Assembly: GCA_945905295.1 (NCBI GenBank)
Contig: CAMDPX010000056.1
Location: 1 to 34,683, forward strand
From: Planctomyces sp. SH-PL62
GTDB lineage: Bacteria > Planctomycetota > Planctomycetia > Planctomycetales > Planctomycetaceae
Length of the DNA: 34,683 nucleotides
Direction of reading: 5' to 3'
Shown: piece after piece, positions 4,883 to 34,683 of the stretch
How positions within the stretch are numbered: the first letter of the stretch is position 1
Layout: the number at the start of each line of letters is the position of its first letter
The notes under the pieces: model-generated
What the model was told of the DNA's origin: nothing
The model's database searches: none
What the model saw: only the letters and a program-made list of their open reading frames with translations
Position numbers and translations under genes: made by a program

Positions 4883-6034
4883 ATGCTGACCGATTCGGTG
4901 AACGCGATGGTCGGCAACCTGACGTCGCAGGTGCGGAACATCGCCGAAGTCACCACGGCCGTGGCGCGCGGCGACTTGTCGCGCAAGATCACCGTCGATG
5001 TGCGGGGCGAAATCCTCGAGCTGAAGAACACGATCAACGTGATGGTCGATCAGCTCAACTCGTTCGCGTCCGAAGTGACCCGCGTCGCGCGTGAGGTCGG
5101 GACGGACGGCAAGCTCGGCGGTCAGGCCGAGGTGCGGGACGTCAGCGGCGTGTGGAAAGATTTGACCGAGAACGTGAACTCGATGGCCTCGAACCTGACG
5201 GCCCAGGTGCGGAACATCGCCGACGTGACGATCGCCGTGGCCAACGGCGACTTGTCCAAGAAGATCACGGTCGATGTGCGGGGCGAGATTTTGCAGTTCA
5301 AAGAGGCCATCAACGTCATGGTGGATCAGCTTCGGTCCTTCGCCTCCGAAGTGACCCGTGTGGCCCGCGAAGTCGGTACGGAGGGAAAGCTGGGTGGTCA
5401 GGCGCTCGTGCCCGGTGTCGCCGGCACTTGGAAAGATCTGACGGACTCGGTAAACGCGATGGCCAGCAACCTCACGGCGCAGGTGCGAAACATCGCGGGA
5501 GTGACGATGGCCGTGGCTCGCGGGGACTTGTCGCGCAAGATCACGGTCGATGTGCGTGGCGAGATCCTCGAATTGAAGGACACCATCAACACGATGGTGG
5601 ATCAGCTCAACGGATTCGCGTCCGAGGTGACTCGCGTGGCGCGTGAAGTCGGGACCGAAGGGAAGCTCGGTGGTCAGGCGCAGGTGCCGGGTGTGGCCGG
5701 GACGTGGAAGGATCTGACCGACAACGTGAACTCGATGGCCTCGAACCTGACGAATCAGGTGCGGAACATCGCCGAGGTGGCGACCGCCATCGCCGACGGC
5801 AACCTGTCGAAGAAGATCACCGTGAATGTGAGCGGTGAGATTTTGCGGCTCAAGGACACCGTCAACACGATGGTGGACCAGCTCAACGGGTTCGCGTCGG
5901 AAGTCACGCGCGTGGCGCGTGAAGTGGGGACGGAAGGGAAGCTGGGTGGTCAGGCGCAGGTGCCGGGCGTGGCCGGCACCTGGAAGGATCTCACGGACAA
6001 TGTGAACTCGATGGCGTCCAACTTGACGAACTAG
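4883..6034 (+). pseudogene. Poly-HAMP array: 5'-truncated remnant of a multi-HAMP histidine kinase, ended by a nonsense codon
   Basis: 383 residues made of tandem HAMP-like repeats with an exact 276-bp (92-residue) period. The motif [20 protein letters not shown] recurs at 4931, 5207, 5483, 5759 and, beyond the stop, 6035. Each unit then has [35 protein letters not shown] and a GTWKDLTD linker. This is the repeat type of group III (Nik1/Os-1-like) and related bacterial hybrid kinases, where it transmits signals to the kinase core. The array begins abruptly: similarity to a full unit starts just after the ATG (MLTDSVNAM matches DLTDSVNAM), there is no ribosome binding site and no membrane or sensor segment. 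The TAG at 6032-6034 replaces the CAG of the other units (NLTN-stop-VRN). No kinase domain follows. A short soluble poly-HAMP product cannot be excluded. Confidence 0.8.
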
Positions 6035-7554: not shown

Positions 7555-8293
7555 AAAAGGGGTCAGGTCTCTTTTCGAGGGCGACCTCTTGGCCGAGTGG
7601 TGTTTTCCAGGCAGAGACGAACGGTGCTGCTCTTGATCCAGCGGTCGTCGCCGAAGGGCAGGCCGCGTTGAATGCAATGTCGCAAGGCATTGACTTCGGT
7701 CTCGGTCTCGGCCTTGTTGACCCAGGAACGCCATTGACGTGGAAGCGGCGGATCGTCGGGAGTTGCCAACCAACGGCGTTTGTCAGCGGCCTGTTGACGC
7801 GCTGCGGCAGAACCCCACGCCCACTCTTCCGCGAGTTCCACGAAGTTCGCACGGACGGGATTCCGTTCCACATACCGCATGGCGATCAGCAAGTGGTCGT
7901 CGTTTTGAATCGGGAACGACTTGAAGCGACCTTGGTACAGATGCCCGGTCCCACTGGTCTTGTAGTGCGCGTGATAGCGCATGGTGTGCATCACCGACAG
8001 CCGCTGGAAAAAGTTGCTGACTTGGTCGTCGGTGGTCGGTCGCACGATGAAGTGCCAATGATTCGGCATCACCGCCATCGCAAAGATCGGCAACGGCACG
8101 ATCTCCCAAGTCTCGTCAACCACTCGCAAGAAGGCGTCGTAGTCCGCCGGCTTCTCAAAGATCGTCAACCGCGCCACCGCTCGATTGAGCACATGAAACA
8201 CTTCGCCTCGCGGGCAAACTCGCTTACGTCTTGGCATGATTGGCGGAGCCTACCAACGGCTCTTTTCCAAAACAATGAGACCTGACCCCTTTT
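7555..8293. mobile_element. Y1-transposase element bounded by a perfect 17-bp inverted repeat
   Basis: AAAAGGGGTCAGGTCTC at 7555-7571 is exactly repeated in inverse orientation at 8277-8293, enclosing a single transposase gene on the minus strand. The element is about 739 bp. Immediately outside the right end lies dispersed repeat copy B (8321-8382). I see no target-site duplication, as expected for single-strand Y1 transposition. Long simple inverted termini are not typical of IS200/IS605 elements, so the repeat may be a REP-like or transcription-related palindrome around a RAYT gene. Confidence 0.6.
7563..8237 (-). CDS. REP-associated tyrosine transposase (Y1/IS200-like, RAYT)
   Basis: 224 residues, in the normal RAYT range. 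The catalytic His-hydrophobic-His motif is intact in AVMPNHWHFIV (H60, H62), and the candidate catalytic Tyr is Y122 in MRYVERNPVRANFV, a hallmark of this family. The N-terminal MPRRKRVCPRGEVFHVLNR and the GHLYQGRFKSFPI stretch also match it. Y1 HUH enzymes nick and join single-stranded DNA through a 5'-phosphotyrosine; RAYTs are thought to mobilise REP palindromes. The TGA stop (7563-7565) lies inside the left copy of the flanking 17-bp inverted repeat. All key residues are present, so it may still be active. It lies next to a broken histidine kinase. Confidence 0.88.
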   Translation of the reverse strand: MPRRKRVCPRGEVFHVLNRAVARLTIFEKPADYDAFLRVVDETWEIVPLPIFAMAVMPNHWHFIVRPTTDDQVSNFFQRLSVMHTMRYHAHYKTSGTGHLYQGRFKSFPIQNDDHLLIAMRYVERNPVRANFVELAEEWAWGSAAARQQAADKRRWLATPDDPPLPRQWRSWVNKAETETEVNALRHCIQRGLPFGDDRWIKSSTVRLCLENTTRPRGRPRKET

Positions 8294-8547: not shown

Positions 8548-9984
8548 ATGAAGATGCACTCCTGGCTGAGTTCCCTGCGCCACCGTGTGAATCAACTTCG
8601 TCGAAGAACAACCAGAACAAGACGGGCGAATCCGCGGCAGTCGAAGGGGTTGGCGGGGGCATTCCTTGCGAGCGTCCTTGAGCATCTGGAACCTAAAGTC
8701 GTCCTCACGATTCCCGCTCAGGTTCCCACGGCGGATTTGCTGGCCTATTACTCCTTTGACGGAGATTTGAATGACGCTGTGGGGAGCGCCGATGGCGTGG
8801 CTGTCGGCGGCCCGACCTTCGTGGCCGGTGTTCACGGCCAGGCATTGCACACCTCAACGGGTCAGTACGGCACCGTCCCGGTCGGATCGGCCTATGTGCC
8901 TGGTAACGACAGCTTCACCGTCGGCTATTGGTTCAAGACCGCCGGAGTGGATCCGTCACTCAACGCGATCTTTGTCCCATTGGTCATCCTGCAAGGGGAC
9001 GATTTCTCCGAAGGTGGTCTGTCCGCGCTGGGCGGTCCCGACGCCGTCAACACGGATCGAGTGGCGGTCACACTTCACGATGGCAGCCAATCGACACTGA
9101 CCGAATACTCAACGGGCAGTTCGTTGCTCAACGAGTGGCACCACTTGACCTATACCGTCGATCGTTCGACGAGCACGACGACTCTGTATTTGGACGGTCA
9201 GAGTGTTGCCAGCAGTTCGTTGACGTTGGGGAGCATTGATCCCGGCCAAGACCTGCTCTTCGGGGCGTATGACTTCGGCTTTGCTCGCAATGGCCTGCCC
9301 CGATTTCTGGGGAGCGGCGGGACAGACCTGGATGACGTCGCCATCTATGACCGCGCACTCACGTCGGTTGAAGTCGCGAGTCTCGCAGCATCGTTTGACT
9401 TCGGTGACGCACCGGCACCCTATCCGACCACGTTGGCTGAGAACGGCGCGAGACACATGGCGACGGGACCGATGCTGGGAACTAATCGAGATAGTGAGGG
9501 CGACGGTACTTACTCAGCGACTGCGAACGCGGATGACTCGACAGGTTCTCCGGACGATGAAGATGGCGTCACGTTTGGGACAATTCGGGTCGGAGCCCTG
9601 GGAGTCACGGCGACGGTCAACGTCCAGAACGCGTCGGGCGGAGCCAAGCTCGATGCCTGGATTGACTTCGATGGCGACGGGAATTGGGGTGGGCCACTGG
9701 AACGGATCGCGGAGAATTTCAGTGTCTCAAATGGAGTCAATTCGCTGACGTTTGATATTCCGGGTTGGTCGCTGCCGGGAGCGACCGTAGCGCGGTTCCG
9801 AATCAGCTCGAGCGGCACTGCCACGTTCAGCGGTGTCGCGAACGATGGAGAAGTCGAGGACTATCAAATCATCATCAGCCCGGCCGTGTCAGGCAGTGGC
9901 ATCTTCCAGACAGCCCAAACAATTACGTCGGCTGTGGAACAACCGGAATTATTTTTTTTCCATCGACCTGGATCGCGACGGTGA
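8548..9984 (+). CDS. Giant secreted protein, N-terminal part (LEPR-xLL-like motif, LamG, GEVED), ends at a frameshift
   Basis: 478 residues as read. The N-terminus is basic (MKMHSWLSSLRHRVNQLRRR), followed by a short hydrophobic stretch and LEHLEPKVVL, resembling the LEPR-xLL motif found at the N-terminus of large secreted planctomycete proteins. Residues about 64-281 are a LamG/concanavalin-like fold (LLAYYSFDGDLND at the start, DDVAIYDRALTSVEV at the end). Residues about 282-446 are a GEVED domain: DFGDAP, then DDEDGV, WIDFDGDGNW and NDGEVEDYQI. After a T8 run (9952-9959) the frame ends at the TGA 9982-9984, while the next frame continues with calcium-binding DxDGDGD repeats. Removing one T joins the frames as PELFFSIDLDRDGD. 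It is therefore read as the 5' part of the gene that ends at 31531. AAAGGG is the only ribosome-binding-site-like sequence. Confidence 0.85.
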   Translation: MKMHSWLSSLRHRVNQLRRRTTRTRRANPRQSKGLAGAFLASVLEHLEPKVVLTIPAQVPTADLLAYYSFDGDLNDAVGSADGVAVGGPTFVAGVHGQALHTSTGQYGTVPVGSAYVPGNDSFTVGYWFKTAGVDPSLNAIFVPLVILQGDDFSEGGLSALGGPDAVNTDRVAVTLHDGSQSTLTEYSTGSSLLNEWHHLTYTVDRSTSTTTLYLDGQSVASSSLTLGSIDPGQDLLFGAYDFGFARNGLPRFLGSGGTDLDDVAIYDRALTSVEVASLAASFDFGDAPAPYPTTLAENGARHMATGPMLGTNRDSEGDGTYSATANADDSTGSPDDEDGVTFGTIRVGALGVTATVNVQNASGGAKLDAWIDFDGDGNWGGPLERIAENFSVSNGVNSLTFDIPGWSLPGATVARFRISSSGTATFSGVANDGEVEDYQIIISPAVSGSGIFQTAQTITSAVEQPELFFFHRPGSRR

Positions 9985-12900
9985 CACGGACGTGATTGTT
10001 CCATCAGCCGTCAACGGCGAGGTGGCCTGGTATGAAAACAATGGAAATGAAGTCTTCACCAAACACCTGCTTCAGACCGACGTCGTGGGTGCCACCAAAG
10101 TCTTTGCCGAAGACATCGACGGTGATGGCGACCTGGATGTGATCGCCACTCTCTTCCACAACGGTGTGGTGTGGTACGAAAACGATGGCAGTCAAGGCTT
10201 CACTACGCGCACCGTTTCGACCAACGGCAATGAGAACCCGCGTGGGCTATTCGTCGCCGATATCGAAGGCGACGGCGATCGCGACATTTTCTCGGCGACA
10301 CGGAGTAGCAGTCACGTCAACTGGCACGAGAACGACGGGGCGGAATCATTTACGACGCGAGCCATCACGAACCAAGCACAGCGGAGCTACGGTGTCATTG
10401 CGGCCGATGTTGATGGCGATGGCTTTATGGACTTGGCGTCGGCATCTGTCGATGACAATAAGTTTGCGTGGTATAAGAATGATGGGACTCAGGGATTTAC
10501 TCAGCGTGTCATCGACGCCGACGCCGCAGGAGCACTTTTCCTGGCAGCGAGTGACATTGATCTCGATGGCGACTTGGACTTCGCCGGTGCCGCAGTGTTT
10601 GGAGATGTGCTCGCCTGGTATGAAAACGATGGAACGGGAACATTCTCGAAGCACATTTTAAGCGCGACCGCGACACGGGCAAACAGCGTATTCCCGGCGG
10701 ACATTGATGGAGACGGCGACGTTGATATCGCCGCAACGTTCCAAGACACCGTCGTGTGGTTCCAAAATGACGGAGCGCAGTCATTTACTCAACGTACCGT
10801 GAGCAGTACCGAGGCCGGGGCGACGAGTGTGTTTGTGTCTGATGTGGATGGCGACGGGGTTCTGGATCTCGTCGCCAGTGCGTCGACTGGCAACAAGGTG
10901 GTTTGGTATCGGCAGCAAGCGGCGACTGGTGTCAGCGATGCACTGGATTTCGGCGATGCTCCAGATACGAGTGCTGATACCGGGACTGGCAACTATCAAA
11001 CATTGCTGTCCAACGGTGGTCCGAGTCACAACATCGCCACGACGCGGACAACGCTGTTCCTGGGGACCGGAGTCGATAGCGAGGCCGATGCCATTCCCAA
11101 CAACAACGCGAACGGCGACGACAGCACGACGTCGCCGGATGACGAGAACGGGTTGATCGAGCCGGCTCAGGACTTGGTGCTGACCGTCGGCACGGAACCA
11201 GTCGTGCGAGTGCGGGCGACGAACACGACCGGCGCGGAGGCGACGCTTTACGGCTGGATCGACTTCAACCGGGACGGCGTGCTCGACAATGCGACAGAGC
11301 GGACTTCTGTAGCCGTTCCCGACTCGATAACCAACGCCACGTTCGTACTGACGTTCCCGACGATCCCAATCGACACGACGGCGGGGGTGACCTACGCGCG
11401 GTTTCGATTAAGCACAGACGCAGCCGCGGCGAACTCCACCGGTGCTGCGTCCGACGGCGAAGTGGAAGACTACGCCGCGACGATCACCAGACGCAGCGAA
11501 GGGACTGTCGATAATGCGAAGTCCGTGAAGATCGCCGGCGAGCTGAATGGTGGTCCTCTGCTTGTGAACGGGGACAAATTTGGCTTTTCCGTAGCTGCGC
11601 TGGGTGATCTGGATGGTGACGGCGTGACCGATCTGGCCGTCGGGGCTTATGGCGATAACACGGGCGGTTCGGCTCGCGGCGCGGTCTATGTGCAATTCAT
11701 GAACTCGAACGGCACCGTGAAAAACCTCGTGAAGATCGCGAGCGGGACGAACGGTGGCCCGATACTCGAGAACTCTTACTTTTTTGGTTCTTCATTGGCA
11801 GCGCTGGGTGACCTGGATGGTGACGGCGTGACCGATCTGGCCGTCGGGGCACTGGGTGATAACACCGGTGGTGTCGTTCGCGGAGCGATTTATGTTCTGA
11901 TGTTGAACTCAAATGGCACGGTGAAAAACAGCGTCAAGATTGCCGACAGTACCAACGGCGGCCCGTCGCTCTCGGACGGTGACTTATTCGGCAGTTCCGT
12001 CACGTCGCTGGGTGACCTGGACGGCGACGGCGTGACCGATCTGGCCGTTGGAGCCCAGGACGATGACACCGGGGGAACATATTCGAATCGTGGAGCTGTG
12101 TATGTTTTCTTTTTGAACAACAACGGCACGGCGAAGAGCAGCGTCAAGATCGCGAGCGACACGACTGGTGGCCCGACGCTCGCAGACGAGGACCGTTTTG
12201 GGATTTCCGTCACAACCCTCGGTGACCTGGACGGAGATGGTGTGACCGATCTGGCCGTCGGAGCTAGAGGGGATGACACGAACGGCAGGGAGCGCGGTGC
12301 GGTACATGTCCTTTTTTTGAATAGCGACGGCACGGTGAAGAGCAGCGTCAAGATCGCGAGCGACACCAACGGCGGTCCCACGCTGGCGAATCGAGATCTC
12401 TTCGGTTGGTCCGTCGCGTCTTTGGGCGACTTAGACGGTGATGGTGTCGTGGATCTGGCCGTCGGAGCCCAAGCAGACGACACGGGCGAAGATCGAGCAG
12501 GCCAATCGGGCGAAGTTGAGGAGAGCGCCAATCGCGGGTCGGTGCATTTGGTGCTGCTGAATTCGGACGGTACGGCGAAGAACAGCATCAAGATTGCTGA
12601 CGAGATGAACGGCGGCCCTCAACTCGAAAATGAGGATCGTTTCGGAAGTTCCGTGACCTCTCTGGGTGATCTGGACGGCGACGGCGTGATCGATCTCGCG
12701 ATCGGAGCGTTTGCGGATGGAGGTGATGATGCCGATTCGTTTGGAGCAGTACATGTGCTGTTCTTAAATCCGTCCGTCACGAATCATGCTCCGACTGTTG
12801 CCAACGACATTGCCGATCAGAATGCGACCAAAGATGTGGCGTTCACATTCGCCTTCGCTGCGAATACGTTCGCGGATGTGGATGTGGAGGACTCGCTGAC

Positions 12901-15900
12901 GTTCTCGGCGACGCAGTCCGACGGCAGTGCGTTGCCGAGCTGGCTGACCTTCACGGCTGCGACGCGCATGTTCTCCGGCACACCGCGGAATGCGGATCTT
13001 GGAACGCTGTCGATCGCGGTCACGGCGACGGACGAAGGCAACGCGAGCATCAGCGACACGTTCGACATCGTTGTCCCGTTCGTGGAGGCGATCTCGGTGG
13101 CCGATCCGTCGTTGCCAAGCGTCACAGCGACAGCGACGAGTGAATCGGATCAATTCGCGATCAGCTCCGACGGTCGCTACGTCGCATTTCATAGTTTTGC
13201 GAGCAACTTAGTTCTCGGAGACACCAATGATGCGCCCGACGTCTTCGTGAAGGATCTAACGACTGGGATCATTACGCTCGTTAGTACCAACAGCGACGGA
13301 GTCCAGGGAAACAACGCTTCGTTGTTTCCCTCCATCGCGGCCGACAGCAGCGGCCATGTGTTCGTGACATTTGGCAGTTTCGCGAGCAACCTCGTCGCCG
13401 CAGACACACATGGCGAGTTGAACTTGTATGTGAAGGATCTCAGCACCGGGACGACAACACTCGTCAATACCGACATCAATCGAGCACCCGCACGCATCTC
13501 CTCGTTTGAATCAGCGGTGGCGGTTGATGACAACGGCCACGCCTACGTCGCATATTCCAGCAACGCAAACAATTTGGTCTCCGAAGACACCAACGAAAAC
13601 TTCGACGTGTTTTTGAAGGATCTGTCGACGGGGATCACCACATTGGTCAGCACGGACAGCTTTGGAGTACAGGGCAACTCGTCCTCCTCAACAGCCGCGC
13701 TCGCCGTTGACAGCAGCGGCCATGTCTATGTGCTGTTTGGTTCCGCAGCGTCGAATTTGGTTCCCGACGACACAAACAACACGATCGACGTTTTTGTCAA
13801 AGATGTCGACTCAGGAGTGACCACGCTCGTCAGCACAGACACCAACGGCACGCAGGGAAACAATGAATCGCTTCTCAGTTCGATCGCGGTTGATGGCAGT
13901 GACCACGTTTACGCCGCGTTCTACAGCTTTGCGAACAACCTCGTCTTCGGAGACACAAACGACCGGTCTGACGTCTTCGTGAAGGATCTAACGACTGGAA
14001 TCCTGACTCGCGTGAGTACAGACAGCGACGGACTCCAGGGAAACAGCGCTTCGTTGTTTGCATCGATTGCGGCCGACAACAACGGTCGCGTCTCCGTCGC
14101 ATTTACCAGCACTGCCAACAACTTGGTGCCGGGGGACACAAACGAACGATCCGACGTATTCGTGAAGGATCTGACGACAGGGACAACCACGCTGGCCAGC
14201 AGCAACAGCGTAGGTATTCCAGGAAATAACGACTCACCGTCCGGCGGCATCCGTCCCTCGTTAGCGATTGACGCCAGCGGCCAGATCTTGGTCGCATTCG
14301 CCAGCGCGGCGAGTACTCTCGTCGCGAATGATTTCAATTTAGGCTCCGACGTGTTTGTGAAGAACCTCACGTCCGGAACGACAACCGTTGTTTCCACGGG
14401 CGTTCCCGGTCTGCAGAGTCGGACGGCGGCGAGTTCCAGTAGCGGAGCCGCCGTCAGCCGCGACGGTCGCTACGTTGCGTTTACAAGTTTCGACAGCAAC
14501 CTTGTCGCCGGTGACACTAACAATGCGACTGACGTCTTCGTGCGTGATCGCGTTACCGGAACCACGACGCTGGTCAGTACCACCACCGATGGTTCGATGT
14601 CTGCGGGAACATTCGATTTCGCGCCGCCCTCATTGGCGGTTGACGTTCAAGGTCACGTCTATGTGGCCTTTTCCAGCTTGGCGACCAATCTTGTCGACGG
14701 GGACACGAACGAGGCGATTGACGTCTTCGTGAAAGATCTGACGACGGGCATCACGAGTCGTGTCAGTACCGACAGCGAGGGCCAGCAGGGGAACGATTCT
14801 TCGGGTGACTTCATCTCCCGGCCTTCCATAGCAATTGACATCGACGGCCACGTTTACGTCGCGTTCTCCAGCCGCGCGAGCAACCTGGTCGCCGATGATA
14901 CGAATGACTCTACCGATGTCTTTGTGAAAAACTTGACGGCCGGAATCACGACGCGAGTCAGCACGGGCAGTGACGGTACACAAGGGGATTTTGAGTCTGG
15001 TCAAGGATCTTCTCCGTCGCTGGCGGTTGATGAACATGGTCACGTCTATGTGGCCTTTGTAAGCGGCGCGACCAATCTCGTTCCCGGTGACACCAACAAC
15101 CATTCCGATGTGTTTGTCAAAGATCTGGCGACGGGCCAAACGGTTCGCGTCAACACGAGCAGCAACGGCGAGCAGGCGAATAATTCTATCGCATTCGGCA
15201 CTTCTCCCTCTTTGGCGGTGGATCACAACGGCCGCGTTTACGTCGCCTTCAGCACCGACGCGTCCAACCTGGTCGCGGGAGACACGGGAAATTACACCGA
15301 TGTCTTCGTCAAAGATCTGGCCACCGGCATCACGACGCGCGTCAGCACAGATCGCCAAGGCAACGCGGGGAACTTCTTTTCGAGTGCCTTCTCGTCACCC
15401 TCTTTGGCAATTGATGGCAACGGCCACGTCTACGTCGCGTTTGCCAGTGACGCCAGCAATTTGGTCGCGGGGGACACCAACGGTACGACCGATGTTTTTG
15501 TGAAGGATTTGACGGGGCCCACAACGCTCGTGAGCACCGACAGCAGGGGGCAACCAGGGAACTTTCCATCGTCTGCAATGGGACAATCCCCCTCTTTGGC
15601 CGTCGATGACAGCGGACATTTCTATGTCGCGTTTTCGAGTTTCGCGACGAACTTGGTCGCGGGGGATTTCAATCAGCAAACAGACGTGTTCCTGTTCACG
15701 GGAGTGATCGACAACGCTCCCTCGATCTCTTCCATCGCCGATCAAAGCCTGCCCCCCGGACAATCGACCGGCGCGATTCCCTTCACCGTGAGTGATTCTG
15801 AAACCGCTGCCGCGGATCTCATCGTGACGGTGACTTCCTCGAATCCCAACGCCGTTCCGCTCGACAACATTGTCCTGGAGGGTGACGGAACCGAGCGGAC

Positions 15901-21900: not shown

Positions 21901-24900
21901 TGCAACGATCCGATTGGAGAGCGGCTCCGACGATGACTACGACGACGGCATTACGGTTGCGGGGACGGACGGAGTCTTTGAAATGCAGGTCACGCTCACG
22001 CATGACACGCAGAACTTGGGTGTCAACACCTTGAGATTCTCGACGTCTGACGCCGGAATGCAGGCCAGTTCGGAAACAGTCGTGGTGCATTACGCGATCG
22101 GTAGCGTGGTCCGCTTCGTCAGCAACCTGGGAACCTTTGATGTCGAACTCCTGGATTCCGATGCGCCGAATACGGTCGCCAATTTCAAGAGTTATTTGGA
22201 CGACTACACGAATTCGATCGTGCATCGTTCGATCAGCCAATTCGTGATTCAAGGAGGTGGTTTCACCGTGGACGGGGCGAACGTCTCGGCAATCGCGACC
22301 ACCGCGCCGATCGACAACGAATTCAATCCGGCCAATTCCAATGTCGCCGGCACTCTGGCAATGGCCAAGCTGGGCGGACAACCAAATTCCGCCACCAGCC
22401 AATGGTTTATCAACGTCGAGAATAACAGTGCCAATCTCGACTCTCAGAATGGCGGCTTCACCGTGTTTGGTCGTCTCATTGGAGAAGGCCTGTCTGTCTC
22501 CCAAACCATTAACTCTCTGCCGACGTTTGACCTCCGCAACACTTTGGGCACGGCTTTCACCGATGTCCCGATTCGTGAGCAATTCGATCCTGGCTCCGGT
22601 GCCTCTCCAAGCGGCGACGACTTTGTCGGTTTCCGTGGGATCAGTGAAATCCTTGTCCAAGGGGAAACGACTCCGAATGCTTTCGACACCATCACTCTTG
22701 ACGCGTATGAGGTTGCTCTCAGTCCCAACGATCCGGTGACAGTTGAAGTCACCGTGACGACTCCGATGGCCGGTGTCCCTCGCGACATTGCATTGGAATT
22801 GGACATCGGAGGTGTCGGCATTCAGGCGGAGGTCGCGCCGTTCCAATTCGAAAATGTGCAACCGGGTTCCAGCGTGACATTCTCGATTCGACTAACGGCG
22901 GAAAGTAGTTTTCCAAACGGCCGCATCGCGCTGCGCTCGAATTCCAATGGACTTGCCGGCCCCATTGCCGAGTTGCTCGTGACTCCCAGCCTGGACTCGG
23001 AACCGGGACTGTCCGGCAGGACCGTCTTCCTGGATCAGAACAACAATGGCGTGCTCGATGCTGGCGAAGTCAGCACACACACGGCCGCCGATGATCCCGG
23101 CACCCCGCAAAACGAAGCGGGCACTTACTCGTTCACAGGACTGGCCAGCGGGCTACAAGCCGTGGCCGAGCAATTGCCGATCTTCCGGACTCGTCCCAAC
23201 GAATTTGGGTTGATCTCCGCGACCGACGGTCAGTTCGTCTTTGGACCAAGGTATCTCCGAGTCGGACAGGGTGAGGCGCTGAACGGGGTTGATTTTGGGG
23301 ACTTGGAACTTCGCCGTGAAATTCATGGGACGCAATGGCTCGACGACAATGCCAACGGCATTCGTGATCCTGATGAATCCGGCTTGGCGGGCATCACGAT
23401 CTATCTCGATTTGAATCACAATGGCAGCGTGGATGCTGGCGAGCCCAGGACGCTCACGGCTGAGGATGATCCCGCGACGACGGGAGTTGATGAAACGGGA
23501 CGCTACCAATTCGTCGGATTGCTGCCCGGCAATTACGACGTGCGAGAAGTTGTCCCCAGCGGATTTCGCACGACGTTCGCGCCGACGATCCAGCGCGTCG
23601 ATGTGCCCGAAGACGAAACCTTGCCCAACGGTCGTACCGTTCAGAACTCTCAGGCTCAGATCAGCGGGGACGGCCGGTTCGTGGTATTCTTCTCGGACGC
23701 CACCAACTTCGTCCCCAATGACACGAACGGCGCGTCCGATGTCTTCGTCAAGGATTTGCAGACAGGCGTCGTGACCCGCGTCAGCGTCGCGTCAGACGGC
23801 ACGCAAGCGAATAGCGACTCCTACTTCCCGGCCATCAGCGCGAATGGCCGCTTTGTGGTCTTCACGTCCGATGCGTCGAACTTGGTCTCCGATGACACCA
23901 ATGGGTTTAGGATCGACACGTTCGTCAAAGATCTGCTCACGGGAGTCGTCGAGCGAATTGACAACGGACCAACGACGGGCAACACCGGGGAAGACGAGTA
24001 CTCTCCGTCGATTAGCGGTGACGGCCGTTATGTCGTCTTCTTGGGTGGTGATTTTGATTCCCCGGATGTTGTCCTCTACGACCGCCAGACGGGCACCAGT
24101 CGAATTCTCGGTGCGTTTGTTGATTTCGGTGGCTTCGGCTCCGGGGATCCGACCATTAGCGTGAGTGGCGAGTTTGTCGATTTTCACAACGGATTAGTTC
24201 TCAATCTCAGCACGGGCGAAGTCGATGATAGTCCGGTTGTGGGGCGTTTCGTGGCCAATGAAGTCGAGCGCGGTTTCATGGTGACGGACCTCGACACTCA
24301 GATCTCGCTCCGCCTGGACGTGCCGCAATTCGACCAAAATGCTTACGGAGGGTTCGCACTCTTCGCATTCGACACGTACTCGTTCAACTCGTTCACAGAG
24401 AACGGCGACCGTTTGCTTTTAGTTCGCACTCCGAACGCCTTCTATCAAACCGAAGTGGATTTCGTTCGGCCACGCCAAGTGGAGTTGTATGTCGTCCAGA
24501 ATCCATTCTTTGCCCTGGATGCCCTGCGCGTTCAGACGCTCGTCAGCATCTCTGTGGGTGACGTGCTGACGGGTGTCGATTTCGGAAGTTCGAGGTCAAC
24601 GGTCACTGCGGTCGCCAGCATCGCCAGCGCAGAGGCGACGGAAGGTTCGGGAGTGGTGTTCACGATTACGCTGTCGAACGCGCTCGACGTGGAATCGTCG
24701 GTGACGTTCTCAACGTCGAACGGAACGGCGACGACGGAAGATGGCGACTACTCGGCGATCTCAGCGCAGACGGTGGTGTTTGCGGCGGGAACCACTTCGC
24801 AAACAGTGACGGTCCACACCATCGGCGACGACAAGATCGAAGCCCATGAAACCTTCACGGCCAGCTTAAGCGCGCTCAGCGGCGGCAGAATCACGGTCTC

Positions 24901-31762: not shown

Positions 31763-34683
31763 GTGTCGGGCCAGCGATTTCCTGACCGCCTGCGATGGTT
31801 CGCAATGTGGTGCGCACTCGGATTGTGCGTGCTCGGTCTGATGCTGCGCGCCGAGTTGAGCGCAGAGAACGGAGTGTCGGAGGTCGTCAACGACGATCCC
31901 ATTGCGATCGCGGCCGACTATGCGACCGAAGGCAAGACCGAGGATGGTCAGCGAGTTCTCATTCTGCGCGGTCACTGCCGCTTGCAGCAGGGCGGCACGT
32001 TGATGACCGCGCGGCAAATGGTCATCTGGCAGACGAGCCCCGTTGGGGCCGAGAAGCTCGCGTTGTATCTCGAAGACGATGTGCGCGTTGAACAGGTCGG
32101 GCAATCGGATCAGCAGCCCAGCGCGTTCGTGCAGTTGAGTACTCGTGTCGGCGGGGTTGTCTCGCAGTTTCGATTCTCGTCCCCCAGCAGCAAGATCGAC
32201 GAGGATGCGCTGTATCAGCGCGGGATCTCGCGGCGGCGCGACGCACAGCGAGCCACTCTGACTCAGACGCAATTCGTCGTCCCGTCTCAAGAGTCGACGC
32301 AGCCGAGCCTGCGCGCGCCAGCTTCGCGCGACGGCATGCGGCGCATTCGAGTTTCGCCCCGCACCTCGGCCACCTTTCAATGGGGTTCGGAGAAGTCCGA
32401 CAACTTGCCCCCCGAGCAGATCACCATTCTGACGGGGGGGGTGAGGCTCGTGATGGAAGGGGACGATCAACTCGACATCATCGACCTCTCCGCCGACCGC
32501 GTCGTGATTTGGACCGATGCCAGCGAGTCCGGCCAGTTCAACTTTGAGACGTCGCAATCCAAGGACGCGAAGTACCAAGTCTATCTGGAAGGCAACATCG
32601 TCGCGCGCCAGGGTGTCAGCGTGATGCGCGCCGAGCGTGCCTACTACGACGCGCGGGAAGAGCGTGGGCTGTTGCTCGATGCCGAACTGTCGTTCAAGCC
32701 GCCGGAACTGAATGGCCAACGCGTTCGCGTCCATGCGGAAAGGCTGCGACAGAATGCGAAGAACGAATTCCATGCCTCGAACGCCTGGACCTCCAGCAGT
32801 CAGTTCGGACGGCCGGGCTTTCGCATTCAGAGCAGCGATATCTTCGTCGAACCATACTACGCCGAACCGCTCGACCTGCCCCTTCTTGGCGGCGGATTTG
32901 ATTCCCAGCGCTTCGATCCGGTGACCGGCGCGCCGATCTATCGCGAAGTCCCTTACATCACCGCGCTGAACAACACGCTGCTGGTCGATGCGCCGTTCGT
33001 GAACGATGTCCCGCTGGGTTACGTCCCCTTCATCGCCGGACCGGCGGACGTGCCGAACATTCCGATCAAACGCGCGCAGTTCAATTCCGATCGCGTCTTC
33101 GGTTTGCAATTTCGCACGTCGTGGGATCTGTTTGCGTTGCTCGGTACCGAACGGCCGACGGGCACGATGCTAAATCTGGATGCGAACTATTTCTCACGGC
33201 GTGGTCCCAGCATCGGTCTCAACGGGGGCTATGCGGTGAACGACTTGTTCGGTTGGCCGGGGACGTCAATCGGCGAAGGGATTGCCAACTACATCCACGA
33301 CAGCAGCAACGACAACCTGGGGTTCGACCGCCGCAGCCTGGATGTGCCTGAGAACAATCGCGGTCGCCTGACATGGCGACATCGCCAGGAACTGCCCGAC
33401 GGGTTCCTGCTGCGCGGCGAGTTCGGATATCTCGGTGACCGCAACTACCTCGAACAGTATTACGAGAGCGAGTTTGACACGGGCAAAGACATCGAGACGC
33501 TGGTGGCCTTGCAGCAACAGCTCGACAACTGGCAGTGGAACGTGCTCGTTCGGCCGCAGCTCTTTGAGTTCGAGAACAACACTCAATGGCTGCCGCGCGG
33601 CGACTTCACGTTCCTCGGCGAGCCGCTGTTGGGAGGCTGGCTGTCGTGGTCCAGCCATTCGATGGGGGGTTACGCACAGCTTCATGCCGCCGACGCGCCG
33701 TTCGATCCCGTCGCCGATCGCTTTAACGCGCTGCCGTATTATTCAAACTTGAACGGCGGCTTGGCGATGACGCGGCATGAGTTGTCAGCCCCGCTCGACT
33801 TCGGGCCGTTCAACTTGGTGCCCTATGCCTGGGGCGAAGCCGCCGGCTGGAGCGACAGTTCGTCTGGTGACAGCATCAGCCGGCTGGTCGGCAGCGTGGG
33901 GGTTCGCGGCAGCATTCAGTTCGCGAAGTACATGCCTGAAGTGCAGAACCGAATCCTGGGACTCAACGGCCTGGCTCACAAGATGGTCTTTGATGTCGAC
34001 TGGTCGCTGACCGAATCGAATCGCGCACTGTCCACGATCCCGCAGTGGAACGAGTTCGATGACAACTCTCAGGAACGCTTTCGTCAACGACTGCTGTTCA
34101 ACACGTTTGGCGGCACGCTGCCGGCTCAGTTTGATCCGCGTGGCTTCGCCGTCCGTTCGGGAGCCGGCAGTAGCGTGACGGCTCCGTGGCATGAACTGGT
34201 CGATGACCTGCACGTCATTCGTTTGGGTTGGCGGCATCGCCTGCAAACGAAAGTCGGCCCGCTGGAGCGGCTGCGCACGAAAGATTGGATGACGCTCGAC
34301 CTGGAGATGTCGCTTTTCCCAAATACGAGCCGCGACAATTTCGGCGAGACGGCCGGGCTGCTCGGCGGACGCTACGCTTGGAATGTCGGCGAACGGACCT
34401 CGCTGTTGGCGAACGCCAATTACGACGTCTTCAATGGCGGAATGCAGTTGTGGAACTTCGGAGTGCTCAGCCAACGTGGCACGCGCGGCAGCTTGTACGC
34501 CGGAGTGCGGCAGGTGAAGGGCTTAGGCTTTGAGAGCCAAATCCTTACGGCTTCGGCCAGCTACGCCATGAGCGACAAGTGGATTGGAACTGTTGGTACC
34601 GCGTATGACCTCGCCGAGCATCGCAATCGCGGCCAGTCGTTCACGCTGACCCGTGTCGGAGCCGACTTCTTGTTCCACTTCGG
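31763..34683 (+). CDS. LptD/OstA-like outer-membrane protein (partial, runs off the right edge)
   Basis: Open from a GTG at 31763 to the window end, 973 codons in view. The GTG is chosen because GGGAG (31753-31757) lies 5 nt upstream and it gives a full signal peptide: MSGQRFPDRLRWFAMWCALG, then a hydrophobic core to AELSA. An internal ATG at 31805 is the alternative. Residues about 44-110 (DDPIAIAADYATEG, RVLILRGHCRLQQG, MTARQMVIW), about 220-250 (ITILTGGVRLVMEGDDQLDI) and about 270-310 (YQVYLEGNIVARQGVSVMRA, ERAYYDAREERGLLLDAEL) resemble the OstA/LptA-like repeats of the LptD N-terminal domain. The rest has alternating aromatic/polar strands ending ADFLFHFG, as in an outer-membrane beta-barrel. 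LptD inserts lipopolysaccharide into the outer membrane; whether this divergent member does so is unknown. Confidence 0.75.
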   Translation, partial: MSGQRFPDRLRWFAMWCALGLCVLGLMLRAELSAENGVSEVVNDDPIAIAADYATEGKTEDGQRVLILRGHCRLQQGGTLMTARQMVIWQTSPVGAEKLALYLEDDVRVEQVGQSDQQPSAFVQLSTRVGGVVSQFRFSSPSSKIDEDALYQRGISRRRDAQRATLTQTQFVVPSQESTQPSLRAPASRDGMRRIRVSPRTSATFQWGSEKSDNLPPEQITILTGGVRLVMEGDDQLDIIDLSADRVVIWTDASESGQFNFETSQSKDAKYQVYLEGNIVARQGVSVMRAERAYYDAREERGLLLDAELSFKPPELNGQRVRVHAERLRQNAKNEFHASNAWTSSSQFGRPGFRIQSSDIFVEPYYAEPLDLPLLGGGFDSQRFDPVTGAPIYREVPYITALNNTLLVDAPFVNDVPLGYVPFIAGPADVPNIPIKRAQFNSDRVFGLQFRTSWDLFALLGTERPTGTMLNLDANYFSRRGPSIGLNGGYAVNDLFGWPGTSIGEGIANYIHDSSNDNLGFDRRSLDVPENNRGRLTWRHRQELPDGFLLRGEFGYLGDRNYLEQYYESEFDTGKDIETLVALQQQLDNWQWNVLVRPQLFEFENNTQWLPRGDFTFLGEPLLGGWLSWSSHSMGGYAQLHAADAPFDPVADRFNALPYYSNLNGGLAMTRHELSAPLDFGPFNLVPYAWGEAAGWSDSSSGDSISRLVGSVGVRGSIQFAKYMPEVQNRILGLNGLAHKMVFDVDWSLTESNRALSTIPQWNEFDDNSQERFRQRLLFNTFGGTLPAQFDPRGFAVRSGAGSSVTAPWHELVDDLHVIRLGWRHRLQTKVGPLERLRTKDWMTLDLEMSLFPNTSRDNFGETAGLLGGRYAWNVGERTSLLANANYDVFNGGMQLWNFGVLSQRGTRGSLYAGVRQVKGLGFESQILTASASYAMSDKWIGTVGTAYDLAEHRNRGQSFTLTRVGADFLFHF

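Follow-up and report, generated by a model that had tools for sequence, protein, structure and literature searches.

In the dnaX gene of Thermus thermophilus a homopolymer of nine A's lies within the coding region and two products can arise, and slippage there is highly efficient, with 50% of the product being the shorter form (PMC1088944). In Citrobacter rodentium the tssM1 gene is interrupted beside a run of eleven A's, and the full-length form has been shown experimentally to be made by slippage that inserts bases (PMC4256274). For runs of T, plasmid reporters in E. coli indicate that the RNA polymerase of this bacterium gives approximately 10% rescue through deletion at eight T's in a +1 reporter; the A runs in the same study gave no such rescue (PMC6260861). 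The GeneTack survey contains frame changes found in one genome only, with homology on both sides and no conserved site, and its authors held that such single homology-supported cases in the 2013 data would be sequencing errors and not genuine indels (PMC3711429). That survey, which has one table row on Planctomycetes, was the only paper joining planctomycete and frameshifting terms among the part of our literature matches that we examined, and a review on recoding leaves the phylum unmentioned in its first 300,000 characters (PMC5009743).

Here we describe a run of eight T's (T8) in a giant gene from a planctomycete, located in a stretch of 34,683 nucleotides (the window) that makes up all of contig 56 in a draft assembly of 8.6 Mb, which has 476 contigs and a completeness of 97%. 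As in dnaX, a homopolymer stands in a coding region from which two products are possible, and as in tssM1 the gene is interrupted beside it. Those two systems, however, rely on A9 and on insertion at A11, respectively, whereas the present run would need the deletion of one base. The E. coli reporters carry the identical run and act in the same direction, deletion restoring the frame, but they are plasmid constructs in another phylum. The resemblance to the GeneTack singletons extends to the single genome, the homology on both sides and the lack of a conserved site, while the remainder of the T8 gene is unusually long and undamaged in comparison.

The frame change maps to the T8 run

On the + strand, the open reading frame at 8548–9984 encodes 478 residues and ends at a TGA stop (9982–9984). 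The open reading frame list and a domain search place in it an N-terminal leader with the motif LEPKVVLT, which resembles the LEPR-XLL leader of planctomycetes, a Laminin_G_3 (LamG) domain (8860–9378, residues 105–277) and a first GEVED domain (9649–9870, residues 368–441); the protein had no match at all in an NCBIfam search. The eight T's follow at 9952–9959 (+), as read from the sequence and the frame scores, and beyond them the giant remainder of the gene runs in the second frame from 9965 to 31531 (+; the open reading frame is listed as 9833–31531). An FG-GAP block comes straight after the run (9965–10909, +, by domain search and homology; an NCBIfam search of this part returned two weak matches only, far below the cut-off). 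The same frame contains a second GEVED domain (11246–11476, +), He_PIG, RTX nonapeptide (calcium-binding) repeats, SdrD_B, cyclophilin and Calx-beta domains, and, judged by eye, a tail made of a long series of repeats of approximately 60 amino acids. The cyclophilin-type isomerase domain lies at 22115–22531 and has matches in 61 of 170 family genomes, its own included; no orthologue of the whole giant was seen through it among the matches listed, and those outside this locus were rejected as giant orthologues because their open frames span only 393–2,113 amino acids. A search for the same DNA in viral contigs gave no match.

LamG and GEVED are thus read in frame 1 upstream of the run and FG-GAP in frame 2 immediately downstream of it. 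The GEVED homology of relatives reaches position 9942 and the FG-GAP homology begins at 9965, which confines the frame change to the 22 nt at 9943–9964 (+) containing T8. Codon scores agree with this placement, with the 300 nt upstream of the run favouring the first frame (21.4) and the 300 nt downstream favouring the second (27.4), under a codon model that was trained on the same loci and with a cut-off of our own choosing. The first-pass annotation, which had the run parting a protein of 478 residues from one of 7,660 with the homology switching frames at the T's, is borne out in both respects, and the figure of 7,660 is correct by arithmetic. The mere presence of T8 somewhere in the window is unremarkable, as two were found against 0.53 expected and 13 of 100 shuffles had at least two. 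The position of a T8 on the 22-nt interval of the frame change, in contrast, is remarkable as a chance event, with a probability of approximately 4 in 10,000 by our own arithmetic (120 places per 8.6 Mb).

Relatives keep one frame and a constant linker

The same interval is uninterrupted in G010, a genome of the same genus. There the GEVED match ends at query residue 465 (window 9942), the FG-GAP match begins at query residue 1 (window 9965), and the two are 21 nt apart within one open stretch of 6,495 codons, against 22 nt in the window. More broadly, tblastn of relative loci placed neighbouring GEVED and FG-GAP matches in one frame in 59 of 59 rows, several of which represent one place fetched twice. 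These rows derive from 109 GEVED pieces in 61 loci, with the own-genome loci at the window and the loci of the run survey (see below) set aside, and they comprise those GEVED matches for which FG-GAP homology began between –60 and +90 nt away.

A motif search yielded 34 distinct junctions from 24 relative loci, and the linker from GEVED to FG-GAP measured 33 codons (99 nt) in 32 of them, the other two having 32 and 35 codons. As the search admitted only in-frame, stop-free linkers of 24–60 codons with a typical ending, the set leans toward typical junctions and its in-frame state is given by construction; the evidence is therefore the constant length. The linker in the window is 100 nt, one base over the norm. 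The earlier suggestion that the gene would be continuous with one T fewer, in the arrangement usual among relatives, therefore holds for the G010 open stretch, the tblastn rows and the linker length alike. The longest A/T run among the 34 junctions is five, which goes against a kept site. Should T8 have no role in expression, the rigid 33-codon linker of the relatives still pins the one-base lesion.

A young lesion or an isolated error

The giant frame shows no sign of decay. There is no stop codon in the 21,564 nt after T8, although approximately one would arise from every 50 single substitutions there (2%), and the 95% bound on neutral divergence since the break is approximately 0.7%. The break is accordingly either young or an assembly error, and a long-dead gene is excluded, in keeping with the first-pass annotation; the lack of further disabling lesions in these 21,564 nt speaks against a decayed pseudogene, unless the lesion is young. 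Our favoured interpretation is that a single base was recently gained in the T run of a giant, probably secreted, planctomycete surface-protein gene, in the sampled strain or in part of its population, and that replication slippage is the likeliest cause. The gene as read would then give the 478-residue LamG-GEVED protein, leaving the remaining ~21.5 kb out of frame and undecayed. RNA polymerase would slip on such a run by its chemistry, and a minority of full-length product is thus to be expected, while DNA polymerase perhaps restores the frame in some cells. That such genes are broken elsewhere by different lesions is consistent with this interpretation: GEVED-FG-GAP genes with similar N-terminal leaders are cut by in-frame TAG codons in two relatives, at 13810 and 15043 in G009 (contig C15, 12889–15772, L158) and within GEVED in G040 (L216).

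A spotless downstream frame is equally what one would expect of an intact gene that in truth has one T fewer in its run and whose assembly is in error, and the genome is a draft of 476 contigs. As a control we surveyed how A/T runs of at least eight behave in this assembly. From 120 T8 places counted on both strands, 100 were listed and 96 entered the survey, four at contig ends being left out; merging longer runs, together with three pairs with identical contig-end flanks, left 83 distinct runs to be scored. Of these, 17 were in frame, 3 shifted frame on the same strand, 3 switched strand and 60 lacked clear coding signal on both sides. At least 17 other coding runs of 8–10 thus keep their frame, 11 of the 17 being T on the coding strand, which makes a systematic assembly error at such runs unlikely and leaves room for one isolated error. 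The three one-strand frame changes were T8 of the giant gene, the A9 site described below (L174), and L005, which was rejected as a frame change because no open frame of more than 49 codons crosses the run and it is not a gene. Sequencing error had been named as the plain alternative from the start, and the survey upholds it as a single event while speaking against any general trouble at runs. The expectation of the GeneTack authors (PMC3711429) moved our assessment slightly from lesion toward error, and we regard an error as a serious possibility that is nevertheless clearly the less likely of these two plain readings, which together we favour.

Slippage, frameshifting and phase variation at T8

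The long frame can be reached if the transcript loses one base or gains two, or if the ribosome shifts by +1. That a run of this kind is able to slip, as had been proposed, is borne out for E. coli by the reporters (PMC6260861), in which eight T's are long enough for a polymerase from another phylum; these data make a small full-length share plausible here without any design. It is a different matter whether T8 is kept so that the cell makes mostly the short LamG-GEVED protein, with the giant as a minor form. The deletion rescue in E. coli would be compatible with this, as would the 8-A runs that D. radiodurans and Nostoc carry in IS elements, which have been read as a sign that eight bases can be productive (PMC1088944), and the A9 run of the same genus, a probable conserved recoding site. 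However, neither the site nor the frame change is conserved, as seen in the 34 junctions and the 59 tblastn rows; 11 other T runs of 8–10 on coding strands lie within intact frames; an untranslated remainder of ~21.5 kb would be expected to invite polarity; and homopolymer deletions are rare genome-wide in E. coli (PMC5574713). Selection against A/T runs is evident from a length of nine in many bacteria (PMC1088944).

The RNA downstream of T8 is no more folded than its shuffles (z 0.40 and 0.18, in a test of local structure with pseudoknots and distant elements outside its range). Of the two-product proposal, the minor full-length share therefore stands as plausible, while a purposeful arrangement is unsupported, given an unconserved run, RNA folded no more than shuffles and a –1 frame that ends in a stop. 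We found no sign in the 34 junctions that selection built or kept T8 for slippage, and consider functional slippage possible but improbable. If it did work, a slip of a single base would decide whether a protein of 7,660 residues is made, and giant proteins might go unnoticed because gene callers report them as short.

A ribosomal route to the giant protein appears more doubtful still, to the point where we give it almost no weight. The end of the run reads T TTT TTC, which belongs to the –1 frameshift heptamers and stands in the proper register. A –1 shift, however, leads to a stop that begins 41 nt downstream of the first T and not into the giant frame, and the downstream RNA lacks the stability that might assist it. 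As to a +1 shift, the first frame has no stop codon after the run until 9982, and no strong SD sequence was seen upstream of T8 by eye. Re-initiation is the third variant: an in-frame GTG at 9992–9994 (+), noticed by eye, lies 7 nt past the stop of the 478-residue frame, and a GGTGA precedes it by 7 nt. This GGTGA arises from the usual DGD codons, and the product would have no signal peptide and a cut first FG-GAP repeat. The statement that no usable start codon follows the run was thus too strong, since this GTG exists, although re-initiation there is unlikely.

Alternatively, the run could change length by replication slippage so that cells flip a surface protein on and off, much as a G tract phase-varies the pili of Bifidobacterium (PMC9187656). 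Such a switch would suit a gene for a surface protein whose long open reading frame has a homopolymer close to its start, but the tract was not found in relatives (34 junctions), and we think phase variation quite improbable, somewhat more so than functional slippage. The two-product reading, for its part, is possible and finds no support in conservation.

An A9 site in the same genus resembles a conserved recoding site

The A9 run found in the survey (G000, contig C118, 12025–12033; L174, L280), which is followed by G, connects two frames, as judged from the survey and the domains. It terminates an open stretch of 829 codons with ThuA and LamG, and the reading then passes in the –1 register into a frame that encodes DUF6797 and cytochrome c domains; our literature search found no paper naming DUF6797. 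The view that L174 is a gene boundary was rejected on account of the conserved frame change across relatives. Among 12 genomes of the genus, CTGC-A9-GTAG with the same –1 relation stands at the join in all 10 with a close match, the own genome included (G001 and G008 show matches of 42% only and fall outside these 10). In the family, matches occur in 38 of 170 genomes; the 30 loci retrieved include the 10 of the genus, with eight matching genomes lying outside this set. The other 20 comprise 3 with A9-G in the –1 relation, 14 from other genera with both parts in one frame, and 3 without a LamG match; one locus, L267, has both parts in one frame despite an A9. A9-G and the –1 relation therefore occur together in all 13 loci retrieved from two genera (including L251–L261 and L264), three of which (L260, L261, L264) are from one other genus, where the first frame has no immediate stop.

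In the 10 genus loci there is no conserved start between A9 and the first ATG, only scattered CTG, TTG and GTG codons; a TTG lies nine bases before that ATG in nine of them and a CTG in L259. Upstream of the ATG the genus loci encode the peptide KITGHWGEDAVGFKWTEQDSVDN, whose 23 codons include 16 that vary silently, 2 that change the residue and 5 that are invariant, and this nearly exclusive silent variation indicates that translation of the DUF6797 frame already covers the stretch ahead of these candidate starts. The two AAA codons inside A9 are never AAG in the 13 loci, although elsewhere in the gene in G000 lysine is encoded more often by AAG than by AAA (70 against 34). RNA folding after the run is uneven, with hairpins of unrelated sequence and z from –9.7 to –0.9 in the genus of the window and weak values (–2.6 to –0.15) in the other genus, so that what stays constant is the run. 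A9 thus looks like a conserved recoding site that may act by transcriptional slippage or by –1 ribosomal frameshifting; A AAA AAG is the heptamer of the dnaX type.

T8 shows none of these marks of a kept site except the run, and for tests of recoding in Planctomycetes A9 is the better candidate. It is conceivable that this lineage regularly uses homopolymer slippage for alternative surface or periplasmic proteins, with the conserved A9 and, as a younger lineage-specific second case, a T8 that decides between 478 and 7,660 residues, but we hold this to be unlikely.

Lastly, several further features were observed. Palindromic elements of several unrelated sequences occupy the linker right after A9, and the –1 frame stays open in all 10 loci (L250–L259); similar in-frame repeats (RRGSPDPAA) occur within the open reading frame upstream of the run. 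An IS200-like Y1 transposase open reading frame, which could relate to these palindromes, is present in the window just upstream of the giant gene (7563–8237, – strand). An eight-G run at window 32434–32441 lies inside an open reading frame with an LptD_N-like match, which stays open across it, and the 383-residue open reading frame at window 4883–6034 consists mostly of HAMP domains, in four stretches.
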